A DNA stretch of 64,000 nt, taken from contig CAIXGW010000010.1 of NCBI GenBank assembly GCA_903919145.1, forward strand, positions 1-64,000, given 5' to 3'. The stretch is from an uncultured Myxococcales bacterium (GTDB lineage Bacteria > Myxococcota_A > UBA9042). The position numbers and the translations under genes are program-made. The notes beneath the pieces were generated by a model, which saw only the letters and a program-made list of their open reading frames with translations, searched no databases and was not told where the DNA came from. Of this stretch, positions 12,940 to 48,833 are shown in pieces; the stretch's first letter is position 1; the number at the start of each line of letters is the position of its first letter.

Positions 12940-13007
12940 CTCCCTTCTTGGGCTGCTCAGTGCGGCCCGCCTAGGCCCCGCACGTGCCGGCGGCCACGAG
13001 AGATTCG

Positions 13008-14177
13008 ATGCATTTTCTAGCCCTTGCAGCGCGCGGAACCCTGGACGCGGTGGCCGCTGAGTGCCGGGCGCTGTCGCTGAAAATCCTGCGTGTCGATGGC
13101 GACGGCGTCCACCTGGACTTGAGCTGGCGCGAATTGGCCAAGGCCCTGGTGCACTTGCGCGTGGCCCAGCGGCTGTTGCTGGAGCTGGGCTCTGGCCCCG
13201 GTGACGATGGCGAGACGCTCTACCTCTCTGCCCGCCGCATCGACTGGGGCGAGTGGCTCGACGCGCGCTCTACCTTTGCTGTGTATGCGACCGGCGACAC
13301 GGTGCCCCCGGGCAAGCGCGAAAATGGCAGGCCCTTTGCCGGTTTGACCGACCTGCGCTTTGTGGGCCTGCGCGTCAAAGACGCCATCGCCGACGATCTG
13401 ACCCGCCGCCTTGGCCGCCGCCCCGACGTGGACCGCCGCGATCCGCAGGTGACGGTGGTGGTGCGCGGCCATCAGGGGCGCTGGACGTTCTACCTGGACG
13501 CCTCGGATCCACCTTTGTTCCAGCGCGGCACGCGGGTGTCTCCCGGTCCGGCGCCGCTCAAAGAGACCCTGGCGGCGGCGTGCGTCGACCTGTCGCGCTG
13601 GGACCCGCGGCAGCCGCTGCTGGATCCCATGTGCGGGTCCGGCACTCTGGTCCTAGAGGCCGCCAGCAAGGCCCTGGGCATCGCTCCCGGCTGCACCCGC
13701 ACCTTTGCGGTCGAGCGCTGGCCCCAGCACGACAAGACCATGACCCGCTGGTGCGGCGAGGAGCGCGCCGACGCTGTGGCCCGAGCGCGCAAGGCTTTGA
13801 CCGCGCCCACACTGAGGATTCGCGCCAGTGACGTGGATCCGTGGTCGGTGCAGGCCACCCAGCGCAACGTCCAAGAGGCCGGCCTGGGCGACGTGATCCA
13901 GGTCGAACAGGCCGATGCAACGCGGCTGGGCCCGCAGCTGCAGGGCACCTTGCTGTTGACCAATCCTCCCTATGGCGAGCGCCTCGGCGGCTCTGGCGTG
14001 ACCGAGCTGTATCAGCAGCTGGGCCAGAGCTGGCGCGGAAAAGGCCTGGAGTCTGTGCACGTTCTCTCTGCACACGAGCAGTTCGTAGAGAGCTTTGGCT
14101 GGACGCCCCTGCACGGCCAACGCCTGACCAATGGCGCCATCGAAGTCGAGCTGCTGTCTTTTGCGCCGCCGGCCTGA
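13008..14177 (+). CDS. class I SAM-dependent RNA methyltransferase, RlmL type
   Basis: Predicted guanine-N2 methyltransferase of the RlmL/YcbY N-terminal type, acting on 23S rRNA. Residues ~1-160 fit the ferredoxin-like/THUMP RNA-binding part. The catalytic domain has SAM motif I LDPMCGSGTLVLEAA, the RASDVDPWSVQATQRN acidic-loop region and the target-base motif LLTNPPYGERLG (NPPY). 389 residues is normal for the stand-alone form; the E. coli protein is fused to RlmK. ATG 13008 gives the family start MHFLALAARG; the upstream GTG 12984 adds unconserved residues. Confidence 0.9.
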   Translation: MHFLALAARGTLDAVAAECRALSLKILRVDGDGVHLDLSWRELAKALVHLRVAQRLLLELGSGPGDDGETLYLSARRIDWGEWLDARSTFAVYATGDTVPPGKRENGRPFAGLTDLRFVGLRVKDAIADDLTRRLGRRPDVDRRDPQVTVVVRGHQGRWTFYLDASDPPLFQRGTRVSPGPAPLKETLAAACVDLSRWDPRQPLLDPMCGSGTLVLEAASKALGIAPGCTRTFAVERWPQHDKTMTRWCGEERADAVARARKALTAPTLRIRASDVDPWSVQATQRNVQEAGLGDVIQVEQADATRLGPQLQGTLLLTNPPYGERLGGSGVTELYQQLGQSWRGKGLESVHVLSAHEQFVESFGWTPLHGQRLTNGAIEVELLSFAPPA

Positions 14178-14424
14178 GCTCGCGCCCGTCGCTAGACCCT
14201 TTTGGCCACCGACGCGTCCCAGCCTGCACCGCAAGCGCCAAGGCTGCGCCCTGCGGATAGGCCGGTTCCTCCTTGACAACACCACGACTTGGTCGGCACG
14301 ATCGCCGAAACCGTACCGATCTAGCGTTGCGCACTTTGCGCGGCGCGCCTAGCTAGCAGCCAAAGGTGAAAACATTCGATCTCCATGGAGAATCGGAAAC
14401 GTCGCGGCTACCAGGCCCGGCCCC
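14178..14424. promoter_or_regulatory. intergenic region with a weak promoter candidate
   Basis: 247 bp upstream of the barrel gene at 14425. TTGACA at 14273-14278 is a perfect -35 box, but the best -10 (CACGAT at 14297-14302, 18-bp spacer) is weak. Nothing else is obvious. Confidence 0.3.
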
Positions 14425-15330
14425 ATGCGCGGTTGCGCACCTGCGGCGGGCAGCCGGTGGAAGGCGGCGCTGGCCGGCGCCTTGACCCTGACAACCCTGG
14501 CCCTGTCGACCTTGGCCACCTCGACCCCTGCCTTGGCAGCGGATGCCTCGCTCTTTGAAGAGGGCAGCAGCCTGCTACAGGGCTACTCGGTCAGCGGCGG
14601 CTTGTTTGCCGAGATGGGCGGCGGCGAGCTTTCAGGCTGGAAGTACAACCACGGCCTGTCGCCGGTGAGCATGGGCTTTCGCTACTACGAGCGCAACGGC
14701 TTTATCTCTGGGACCATCGCCGCCATTGCCGTCATGCTGGGCGGCGCGGCTGCGGCCAGCGGACCCAAGAGCACCCAGTCCTGGGAATCCGGCGGCTACC
14801 GCTACACCCGGACCACCTACTACAGCCCAGCTGAGCGCGCCGCCATGACGGCAGCCACGGCCTCGGCGGCGGCAGGGCTGTTTGGCTCGGCCAACCAGAG
14901 TTTTGACCTGCAGATCTACTCGCGGCAGATCGGCGGCAATTCTGAAGGGTTCCGCATGAACATGATGCTGTGGGGCCTGCCCTTTGCCGACGGCTCGGGC
15001 ATGTTTGACCTTGGCTTTGGCTGGGCCAGCGTGCGCTCTGCCATTGGCGAAGACGGCAAATTCCTGATCAGCAAGTACGCCTACGTGGGCATGCCGCTGC
15101 GCCTGTCTTACGCCTTTGGCCCAGTGGTCGCCTACGGGCACTTTGACTGGAACTGGTTTGGCCACTCGCGCGACAAGGAATTCAACAGCATGCAGGTCAA
15201 GGGCTCGACCACCACCGCGCTGAACAGCGAGTTTCCCTGGCGCTTTGGCGCCCAGGCGGCGGTGCTGGGCCGCGTCTACGCCGAAGCTGCAGTCACGACG
15301 CCTGAGCTGCAGTCACGACGCCTGAGCTGA
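14425..15330 (+). CDS. outer-membrane barrel-like protein, 3' end frameshifted
   Basis: As written the gene encodes 301 residues that I do not recognise. A signal peptide runs to about residue 39 (TSTPALA-AD). The rest is Gly/aromatic-rich with alternating strands such as FDLQIYSRQIGG, MFDLGFGWASV and VAYGHFDWNWFG, as in an outer-membrane beta barrel. The reading frame ends abnormally: a perfect 20-bp tandem duplication (15286-15325) shifts the frame and gives the tail LQSRRLS. With one copy removed, the frame continues to a TAA at 15375-15377 and ends SLSFGTHISLGARF, a proper barrel-terminal strand with C-terminal Phe (310 residues). So it is a recent mutant, a phase-variable gene or an assembly artefact. 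The next barrel gene follows 66 bp later. Confidence 0.7.
   Translation: MRGCAPAAGSRWKAALAGALTLTTLALSTLATSTPALAADASLFEEGSSLLQGYSVSGGLFAEMGGGELSGWKYNHGLSPVSMGFRYYERNGFISGTIAAIAVMLGGAAAASGPKSTQSWESGGYRYTRTTYYSPAERAAMTAATASAAAGLFGSANQSFDLQIYSRQIGGNSEGFRMNMMLWGLPFADGSGMFDLGFGWASVRSAIGEDGKFLISKYAYVGMPLRLSYAFGPVVAYGHFDWNWFGHSRDKEFNSMQVKGSTTTALNSEFPWRFGAQAAVLGRVYAEAAVTTPELQSRRLS
15286..15325 (+). repeat. 20-bp perfect tandem duplication inside a coding sequence
   Basis: GCTGCAGTCACGACGCCTGA occurs twice head to tail (15286-15305 and 15306-15325), followed by GCTGA. Because 20 is not a multiple of three, it causes the frameshift described for the surrounding gene. Confidence 0.97.
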
Positions 15331-15395
15331 CTTCCCTGTCCTTTGGCACCCACATCAGCCTTGGGGCCCGCTTCTAACCACCTCTGGAGGACTCC

Positions 15396-16199
15396 ATGAA
15401 GAAACTGTGGATTCGCCGTGGGTGGGTCAACCTGCGGACGGCAGCCCTGTGCCTGTTGGGCTCGTTGGTGCTGGTCAGCCCGGCCTGGGCCAAGCAAGCC
15501 GAGATCGGCTGGGTCGGCCTTTCTCGCGACATCCGGGTCGAGGGCTATTGGGGCACCGCCGACTACACCTTTGGTGGCAACAACAAGGGCAGCGGCAGCC
15601 AGATTGTCTTGAATTTTGAAGGCGCTTTTCTTGGCAAGGTCACGCCGCTAGGCAACCTGGGCGGTGTCGAATTTGGCATGAACCTGGGCTATGACGGCGG
15701 ATCGTCCACCGAGGCCGGCGACAGCAGCAAGCCGATGCTGGGCGCCTTTGCTTATGACTTCTCTGTGGGCTTCCCGATCACGCTGTTTCACCACATGTCC
15801 GGCGACCGCGAGATGCTGCAGATCGGCATCGCTCCGGGCTTTGGCCTGAACCACTTGCACGCCTACGCCACCTACCTCAAAGCCAAGGCCGCCATGGCCA
15901 TTGGAGACGGGCTGGCGGCCGAGCTGCAGTGGCAGTGGTGGCCGGGCGGGACCAGCGCCACCAGGTTTGGCGCCAGCGCCACTGGCCTCAACCTCGCTTC
16001 GCTGAAGGGCACTGTGTTTATGGGCAGCTACGGCGATAGAGCCTTTCTGGTCTTCACCGAGTTTCTGTGGGGCCAGGTAGAGCGGGAAGAGCCCGGCAAG
16101 AGCAACCCAGCCTACTTTGCCGGCGAAAACCCCTTTGTCACCACCACCCGCACTGACTTCGGCACCGTGTTCCGCCTCGGCGGCGGCATGGCGTTTTAA
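15396..16199 (+). CDS. exported beta-barrel-like protein
   Basis: 267 residues, unknown family. A signal peptide (MKKLWIRRGW, hydrophobic LCLLGSLVLVSPAWA, cleavage before KQ) is followed by strand-rich sequence with Gly and aromatics and the terminal strand FGTVFRLGGGMAF, whose C-terminal Phe is the usual barrel-assembly signal. TCTGGAGGACTCC precedes ATG 15396. It sits 66 bp after the frameshifted barrel gene and 12 bp before a lipoprotein gene, so the three probably form one surface-protein transcription unit. Confidence 0.65.
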   Translation: MKKLWIRRGWVNLRTAALCLLGSLVLVSPAWAKQAEIGWVGLSRDIRVEGYWGTADYTFGGNNKGSGSQIVLNFEGAFLGKVTPLGNLGGVEFGMNLGYDGGSSTEAGDSSKPMLGAFAYDFSVGFPITLFHHMSGDREMLQIGIAPGFGLNHLHAYATYLKAKAAMAIGDGLAAELQWQWWPGGTSATRFGASATGLNLASLKGTVFMGSYGDRAFLVFTEFLWGQVEREEPGKSNPAYFAGENPFVTTTRTDFGTVFRLGGGMAF

Positions 16200-16211
16200 G
16201 GGGGGCCGACC

Positions 16212-17273
16212 ATGACGATCCGATCCGTGTTCCTGCGTCCCTTTCTCGCCGCCGCGGGCCTTGTGGCCGTGGCTGCCGTCGCCGGGTGCTTGCCCGAATT
16301 CGACGAGCCGCCGCTCACCCCGACCGGCAAGGCTCCCAGCGAAGACCCCGCCTCGGCGTCCAGCTCTGGAGCAGGTGGCTCTGTGGCGGCGACCAAGTGC
16401 AGCGGTGTCTACAGCGGCAACTTGCCTGGCGGCACCAAGTTTGCCGGCCAAACGCCCTGCTCTATCAACGGCAATGTCGACATGGCCTCGCTGACGGCTG
16501 CGGAGCGCCAGCAGATTACCGGCGTCCAGAACATCCAGGGCACGCTCTACATCTCTGCGGCGGAGCACATTGCCCAGCTGCCGGCTCTGACCAGCGTGTA
16601 CGCGCTGACGGTCAACAGCTATGCCAGCCCCACTTTGGACTTTCCCAGCCGAATTGCGGTGCAGCACACCGTCGCGATCTCGGGCGGCCAAGTAAGCACT
16701 ATTAAAGGCTTTGGCGGGGTCAAGTCTTTGGCAGCGGCGTTGACGATCCAGTCGCTGGGCAACCTGGAGTCGATGGATGCTTTCCATGCCTTGGTGTCCC
16801 TAAAGACACTCACGGTCAACCAACTGTCAGAACTGAAAAATTTTAAGGCATTTTCTGCACTGACGTCGGCCAGCAGCGTGAACATCAGCCACTGCCAGTC
16901 CTTGGTCGCTCTGCCCACCTTCGCCAAGCTGGCAAATGTGGCTCTGCTCCAGGTCGGCTACATGGGTTCGCTGACCTCGCTGGCCAGCTTTCCATTGTTG
17001 ACCAACATCAATTCCCTATCGCTCGACAGCCTGGACGGTATCACTGCCGTGTCCTTCCCTGTGCTCAAGACCGTGACCAGCTTCAATGTCAGCGGCATGG
17101 CCAAACTGGCAGATCTAGAGGGCTTTGGACCGAACCTGAAGATCTCCAGCTCTGTGCAGGTCTGCAACATCTTGATGAAAGGCGCCGATCGCGAGGTTTG
17201 GAAGCAGAAGCACGCCCCCGGACTCAATTTTGGCAGCTGCAGCAACGGCTGCTTGGGCTGGGGAACCTGCTGA
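16212..17273 (+). CDS. lipoprotein with LRR-like receptor-L-domain repeats
   Basis: 353 residues. The lipobox VAGC puts the lipidated Cys near residue 26, followed by a Pro/Ser/Gly linker. From ~residue 90 the protein consists of short repeats of ~22-25 residues, with strands such as TLYISAAEHI, ALTIQSLGNLESMDAF, LKTLTVNQLSELKNF, SVNISHCQSL and LLQVGYMGSLTSL. This pattern matches receptor-L-domain or leucine-rich-repeat solenoids that bind ligands at the surface. The C-terminus has a small Cys cluster (VCNILM, GSCSNGCLGWGTC). A surface adhesin or receptor role is inferred. Confidence 0.7.
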   Translation: MTIRSVFLRPFLAAAGLVAVAAVAGCLPEFDEPPLTPTGKAPSEDPASASSSGAGGSVAATKCSGVYSGNLPGGTKFAGQTPCSINGNVDMASLTAAERQQITGVQNIQGTLYISAAEHIAQLPALTSVYALTVNSYASPTLDFPSRIAVQHTVAISGGQVSTIKGFGGVKSLAAALTIQSLGNLESMDAFHALVSLKTLTVNQLSELKNFKAFSALTSASSVNISHCQSLVALPTFAKLANVALLQVGYMGSLTSLASFPLLTNINSLSLDSLDGITAVSFPVLKTVTSFNVSGMAKLADLEGFGPNLKISSSVQVCNILMKGADREVWKQKHAPGLNFGSCSNGCLGWGTC

Positions 17274-17388
17274 GTCAGCGGAGTCTGAGTCGGCGGGTCC
17301 TGAGAGCCGCCGGCGCCTTGAGATCGACGGCTGCGGCGAATTGAGGCATGCTGGCGTGCGGCGGAAGCGGACCGCAGAGCAGCAAGCC

Positions 17389-18426
17389 GTGCCCCACTCG
17401 CGAACCACCATTGTCTTTGACAGCTACGGCGGCCTGCAGGCGCCGGGGGCGATCGTGCGGGCTGCGGCGCGGGCGTCGCGCGAAGGCGCAGCGCAGGTGC
17501 TGCTGGTCGGCGATGTGGCGGCCCTACAAGATCAGCTGGGGCTTATGCCCTATGATCCCATGCGATTGCGTCTGATCCCCGGCGGTGCGGCCTTTCCACG
17601 GCGGCCGGGCGACACCCTGGCCCAGGCCCAGGCGGCGCGGGTCGGCCTGCCAGTAGCGCTGCAGCTGCTGGTAGAGGGCGAGGCCCACGCGCTGGTCACC
17701 GCCAGTCCTGCCGACCTGGTGCGCGAATTGGTGATGAAGCACCTGCCGCTGGTGCCCGGCTGTGTGGCTCCGGCCGCGGCGGCGGTGGTGCCGACCATGC
17801 CGCGCAGCGGCCAGGACGAGCCGCTGGCCCTGCTGCTCGACGTGTCGGGCCAGCGCACCGTCAGCGCGGACGAGCTGGTGCAGTTTGCCGTGCTGGGTGC
17901 GGCCTATGCGCGGGCCATCTCTGGGCTGGCCGAGCCCAGCGTGGCGCTGCTGTCTACGGGCCCCGGACCGCAGGACGGGCCGCCTGAGGTGGTAGAAGCC
18001 CATCAAAGGCTGCGCGGATTGCCCGGGCTGCGCTTTGTTGGCAACATCCGCGCTACTGAGCTCAGCCGCGGCCTGGCCGATGTGGTCGTCACCGATGGCC
18101 TGGTCGGCCACACCGTGCACGGTCTGCTAGAGGGCCTGGCCGACATGACGGTCGAAGCAGCCCGCTACGCCTGGAAGACCAAGATGACGTGGCGGGTCGG
18201 CCTGCGGCTGCTGAGCCAGGGCGTCGGCATGTTGCGCAAAGTCAGCGAATTCAAAGATTACGGCGGCGCACCTTTGCTGGGCTTGCAGCACCTGGTGCTG
18301 GTGGCCAACCCCGACGCCGGCGAGATGGCCTTTGAGAATGCGGTCAAGCTGGCCATCACCTGCCACCGCAAGGGCCTACTGGCCGAGACTTCGCGCTCGC
18401 TGGCGGCACTGAGAGGCCCGGTTTGA
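17389..18426 (+). CDS. plsX: PlsX-like phosphate acyltransferase
   Basis: PlsX converts acyl-ACP to acyl-phosphate, the first step of phosphatidic acid synthesis through PlsY. From GTG 17389 the protein is 345 residues, the usual size, and starts close to the conserved first strand TTIVFDSYGGLQAP. Later conserved blocks are VGNIRATELSRGLADVVVTDGLVGHTV and YGGAPLLGL. The canonical DAMGGD start motif reads DSYGGL here, so it is a divergent member. Starts further upstream (to 17230) overlap the preceding lipoprotein gene and add non-conserved sequence. It overlaps the next gene by 4 bp (TTGA), indicating translational coupling to a probable lipid phosphatase. Confidence 0.8.
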   Translation: MPHSRTTIVFDSYGGLQAPGAIVRAAARASREGAAQVLLVGDVAALQDQLGLMPYDPMRLRLIPGGAAFPRRPGDTLAQAQAARVGLPVALQLLVEGEAHALVTASPADLVRELVMKHLPLVPGCVAPAAAAVVPTMPRSGQDEPLALLLDVSGQRTVSADELVQFAVLGAAYARAISGLAEPSVALLSTGPGPQDGPPEVVEAHQRLRGLPGLRFVGNIRATELSRGLADVVVTDGLVGHTVHGLLEGLADMTVEAARYAWKTKMTWRVGLRLLSQGVGMLRKVSEFKDYGGAPLLGLQHLVLVANPDAGEMAFENAVKLAITCHRKGLLAETSRSLAALRGPV

Positions 18427-48689: not shown

Positions 48690-48730
48690 GGTGGCCTCCA
48701 CGTGGGCAAACGGGACGGGCGGACTGACTG

Positions 48731-48790
48731 GACTGGGACTGGCTGGACTGGGACTGGCTGGACTGGGACTGGCTGGACTGGGACTGACTG
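48731..48790. repeat. 15-bp tandem repeat array
   Basis: Three identical copies of GACTGGGACTGGCTG (48731-48745, 48746-48760, 48761-48775), one variant GACTGGGACTGACTG (48776-48790) and partial copies at both sides. It fills the ~145-bp gap between two minus-strand genes, just upstream of the small barrel gene. Confidence 0.95.
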
Positions 48791-48833
48791 GACTGGGCGG
48801 ACTGACGGGTGCACTGACAGGCGGGATCCTGGC

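Follow-up and report, generated by a model that had tools for sequence, protein, structure and literature searches.

A 20-bp tandem duplication truncates a predicted outer-membrane barrel gene that is probably subject to recurrent inactivation

Barrel-1, a conserved and constrained gene for a predicted outer-membrane protein, has probably been inactivated recurrently and recently, and in the window (the whole 64,000-nucleotide stretch of DNA analysed here) this appears to have come about through a slippage duplication of a reversible type. If recurrent loss is true, this unnamed barrel family represents a surface protein repeatedly discarded by wild bacteria; it would point to a phage or predator receptor and would offer a target for testing in the lake metagenome time series already available.

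Results

The tandem duplication

Near the 3′ end of the barrel-1 open reading frame, two copies of AGCTGCAGTCACGACGCCTG are followed by AGCTG, forming a repeat of period 20 with 2.25 copies and 100% identity (Table 1). Because 20 is not a multiple of 3, the duplication shifts the reading frame. The sequence matches itself exactly over 25 bases at a lag of 20. In 30 windows simulated with matching dinucleotide composition, runs at lags of 10 to 100 reached 15 bases at most, and a chance origin was ruled out. Among units of at least 10 bp, it is the sole tandem duplication in the window that is both perfect and out of frame. A preliminary description of this DNA had recognised the 20-bp duplication, and the perfect unit in the window sequence confirms it. 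The coordinates given there, 15286-15325, capture the repeat itself but are one base off in register and omit the 5-bp remainder. Positions 48721-48797 of the window carry a further tandem array, in frame and of about five 15-bp copies (GGACTGGCTGGACTG).

The single 20-bp unit is bordered at both ends by the 5-bp direct repeat AGCTG, the first at 15285 and the next one unit on. Such microhomology around a single unit is the usual mark, and the substrate, of slippage duplication, and it places the event in the slippage or microhomology class. An assembly or scaffolding error, in which an unmerged 20-base contig overlap was written twice, would fit the state of the genome, a draft of 404 contigs, and the duplicated length, since assembly with 21-base words leaves overlaps of 20 bases. 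We nevertheless consider such an error unlikely, since the unit is flanked by 5-bp microhomology that would not be expected of a mis-join. The self-match extends over 25 bases rather than 20, and the one-copy sequence has its 5-bp repeat at the exact spacing, as expected under slippage but, on a rough estimate, a coincidence of roughly 1 in 200 under a mis-join. Nor does the window contain any other duplication at lag 20; the genome has only one copy of this stretch, and other disruptions of barrel-1 occur independently in related genomes (see below).

The ancestral reading frame

Homologues of barrel-1 are present in 16 of the 52 genomes of the class, with more distant homologues in 10 further genomes of the phylum. 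Ten undisrupted homologues share the ending ..TP.x.S..F.....G(A/L/V)RF, with RF as the last residues before the stop and terminal strands such as TPSLTSGKFGYNLSAGARF or TPGITSLEFATKATLGLRF. The window allele closes with TTPELQSRRLS, and a search among the homologues for orthologues ending in the LQSRRLS frame found none. Removal of one unit from the window sequence yields TTPELTSLSFGTHISLGARF with a stop at 15375-15377; where the unaltered sequence gives TPELQSRRLS, skipping one unit gives TPELTSLSFGTHISLGARF. A frameshift-aware alignment to the homologue from genome G003, which is 278 residues long, puts the break at residue 263. We conclude from this comparison of sequences that the one-copy frame is ancestral, since the restored frame is the one that closes all ten undisrupted homologues and no homologue ends in LQSRRLS, and thus that the duplication has removed the terminal strand of the window allele. 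The preliminary description had anticipated both points, namely that one copy fewer restores a frame ending at 15377 and that the protein loses its terminal-strand assembly signal, and each stands up to the comparison with the ten homologues, which keep the other frame. It had also held that orthologues all ending in LQSRRLS would speak against its reading; none does so.

The barrel-1 product

Neither barrel-1 nor barrel-2, the second predicted barrel gene, matches any Pfam or NCBIfam family, and a sequence search against solved structures returned chance matches only. A promoter scan found nothing. The AlphaFold2 model of the intact G003 homologue is barrel-like, with a mean pLDDT of 84.6, and is built mainly from long strands, some of them separated by helical segments, the last strand spanning residues 269-277. 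At E ≤ 0.001 the PDB matches of this model are without exception outer-membrane barrels (porins, OMPLA, Ail, OpcA, OmpW and an autotransporter domain), with TM-scores of only 0.2-0.4, which support the fold class but not an exact relative. The model thus supports the prediction that the product is an outer-membrane barrel, as the preliminary description had proposed. The intact homologues combine a barrel fold with an aromatic-ended C-terminal strand, and the window allele, whose frame breaks before that strand, lacks it. The family also has two predicted helices of ~20 residues between strands (L002 homologue, at 51-70 and 93-111 in the model of 278 residues), the first of them hydrophobic (GTIAAIAISMAGSAAAS); helices in this position are unusual for an outer-membrane barrel.

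Table 1. Features of the barrel-1 region of the window
Feature	Position	Strand	Remarks
Barrel-1 as it stands, 301 aa	14425..15330	+	truncated, ends LQSRRLS; from homologues and G003 model
Perfect tandem duplication, 20-bp unit x2 + AGCTG	15285..15329	.	frame-shifting
Out-of-frame remnant of ancestral 3′ end	15328..15377	+	reads LTSLSFGTHISLGARF and stop in the homologues' frame; last barrel strand
Barrel-2, second predicted outer-membrane barrel, same cassette	15396..16199	+	intact in 17/17 copies
Third cassette gene, secreted or lipoprotein-like, weak leucine-rich-repeat similarity	16212..17273	+	intact in 10/11
PlsX-like acyltransferase homologue (PF02504)	17230..18426	+	syntenic neighbour, intact

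The cassette

The order barrel-1, barrel-2, third gene, PlsX-like gene is common to the window and to genomes G001, G003 and G005 (first cassette, G005a). In the window, the third gene is followed by the PlsX-like gene, whose mechanical open reading frame start is probably too far upstream, and by an APP1-like gene. In genome G002, a THUMP methyltransferase gene and the PlsX-like gene are adjacent, about 88 bp apart (G002:C162:9932-12226), whereas at 12984-18426 of the window the three-gene barrel cassette lies between the methyltransferase and PlsX-like genes. From this difference in gene order, the three genes seem to come and go together, as one unit.

Recurrent disruption of barrel-1

The class provides 17 full-length copies of barrel-1, a total that includes one Lac Pavin record; the public records of several of the compared genomes are uncultured Myxococcales and Deltaproteobacteria metagenome-assembled genomes. 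Neighbouring genes and other families served as the baseline for lesion frequency. Six of the 17 copies are disrupted, all in metagenome-assembled genomes of one family and small in number, and the seven lesions they carry are all different, which makes them separate events. These are the 20-bp duplication in the window genome (G000), the loss of one T from a TTTT run in G001 (also found in public record VGRO01000005.1, the match being one base short), a +1 shift and a TAA codon in G005a, a TAA 12 codons from the end in the second G005 cassette (G005b), a TAG in G012 and a TAA in G016. The 10 more distant homologues of the phylum contain no in-frame stops. In G015, a contig break falls inside the gene (G015:C234 end / G015:C134 end), a split such as several alleles in the sample would give.

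By the same procedure, none of 17 barrel-2 copies was found to be disrupted, nor, inside the gene, any of 20 methyltransferase copies, events at or upstream of the methyltransferase start being discounted because they stem from over-long reference frames. One of 11 copies of the third gene is disrupted, that of G005b (L096 9738-10744), which carries a frameshift and stops; decay may extend to the entire second cassette of G005. The syntenic neighbours on these contigs are intact; antisense frames, and stops close to the beginning of over-long reference frames, were discounted by eye. The 117 OMP_b-brl matches of the same 22 genomes contain no in-frame stops. With genomes taken as independent, Fisher tests give p = 0.018 for barrel-1 against barrel-2 and p = 0.0005 for barrel-1 against barrel-2 plus methyltransferase, and the finding that all four in-frame-stop copies fall in barrel-1 and none in OMP_b-brl has a p of about 0.002, calculated from approximate codon totals. 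The lesions lie at fractions 0.32-0.96 of the gene. Their clustering towards the C-terminus (KS p = 0.05) is only suggestive of a 3′ bias. Such a bias would fit avoidance of polar effects, but it is not significant (p = 0.09) with the poorly aligned first tenth excluded.

Age of the lesions

The pN/pS ratio is 0.15 before and 0.20 after the lesion in G001, 0.49 on both sides in G012, and 0.34, 0.25 and 0.34 in the three stretches of G005a; the window genome has only 16 codons beyond its lesion, too few for dating. Since the ratios are similar before and after the three measured lesions, we infer from these substitutions that the constraint on barrel-1 held until recently and that the breaks are young.

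A gene dying under relaxed selection in the family, with loss that brings no benefit, is in our judgement rather unlikely. Such decay would account for the many family members that are without the whole cassette, for the G002 arrangement with nothing between the methyltransferase and PlsX-like genes, and for the two lesions in G005a. It is at odds with pN/pS ratios that are low and equal on either side of the measured lesions, with a partner gene, barrel-2, that is never broken, and with the absence among these copies of long-dead, many-lesion examples, G005b possibly excepted. The recent and varied breaks, with intact neighbours, suggest that cells sometimes gain from losing the barrel-1 surface protein.

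Discussion

Recurrent, recent inactivation of a constrained gene is the reading that we favour, and for the window allele we propose the following course. Slippage between two AGCTG repeats 20 bp apart would recently have duplicated one 20-bp unit, and the resulting frameshift would have brought the stop forward by 47 nt. With the last strand and the C-terminal Phe assembly signal lost, the protein would be expected not to assemble. Because the break is late, the new stop lying 66 nt before the barrel-2 start, translation of the downstream cassette genes should survive. Unrelated mutations appear to have inactivated barrel-1 recently in other family members, the next gene staying intact, and this makes repeated selection for the temporary loss of one surface protein the likeliest cause; our guess at an example is escape from a phage, or a predator, exploiting the barrel-1 protein. 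Two tandem copies may lose one, which would render the allele reversible in principle. A broader picture, which we put forward as possible but tentative, is that barrel-1, as the first gene of a conserved outer-membrane cassette, is a hot spot of recurrent loss in a family of largely lake-derived uncultured myxobacteria, with mostly late lesions sparing the downstream genes and off alleles being restored by reversion or recombination in the course of an arms race.

The preliminary description went further and saw a dedicated on/off switch. A true reversible switch, in which coexisting forms interconvert at high frequency by gain or loss of one unit and so turn the barrel on and off, seems to us improbable. 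In its favour are a perfect unit whose copies are adjacent and out of frame, and the reversible duplications known within open reading frames of pneumococcal capsule genes (PMC4243769; PMC4022640). Against it, no homologue has a repeat at this site, two copies make a minimal array, and in other species barrel-1 is broken by point stops and by single-base indels, neither of them repeat-driven. Among strains or orthologues of a contingency locus, the repeat tract would be conserved or polymorphic in copy number, and among the homologues of barrel-1 it is neither.

Out-of-frame arrays do occur roughly 200 bp upstream of barrel-1 in G005b (20 bp x5.8; L017 1120-1234, G005:C291) and in G011 (23 bp x4.0; L012 reverse complement 1188-1280, G011:C689), and these would favour a switch. 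They are, however, unlike in sequence and only weakly more frequent than background, which amounts to about 8 similar arrays elsewhere in roughly 640 kb (about one per 80 kb). Any enrichment of tandem arrays in the vicinity of barrel-1 was judged weak. Given the lack of the repeat in relatives, the point stops found there and this array background, the filing of barrel-1 as a contingency locus is not supported. The upstream arrays weakly favour keeping a regulatory version of the switch idea open.

Comparison with known systems

Simple-sequence-repeat contingency loci are the phase-variable surface genes of Neisseria and Haemophilus. Like them, the window allele has an out-of-frame repeat within a surface-protein gene; unlike them, it has two copies only and its orthologues are without the repeat tract. 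Outer-membrane proteins under phage selection undergo parallel loss of function, and barrel-1 resembles these in its independent, recent and mostly single lesions across lineages, with neighbours intact. It differs from them in that we know of no phage of these bacteria and of no selection experiment.

The closest parallel to the duplication itself comes from Streptococcus pneumoniae, in which the capsule genes cap3A, cap8E and tts undergo spontaneous reversible sequence duplications (Waite et al. 2001, 2003, as cited in PMC4022640 and PMC4243769) and in which many distinct mutations break capsule genes from one isolate to another (PMC4022640). The pneumococcal case differs in that culture experiments demonstrated reversion and phase variation, barrel-1 being known here from its sequence, and in that barrel-1 is an outer-membrane barrel gene of an uncultured organism. 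The likeness is twofold. Barrel-1, too, is broken by different mutations in different lineages, and in both a tandem duplication within the open reading frame turns off a surface-structure gene by frameshift, where loss of one copy can restore it. By analogy, it is possible that the barrel-1 duplication works as the pneumococcal capsule duplications do and that the window allele is, in principle, reversible.
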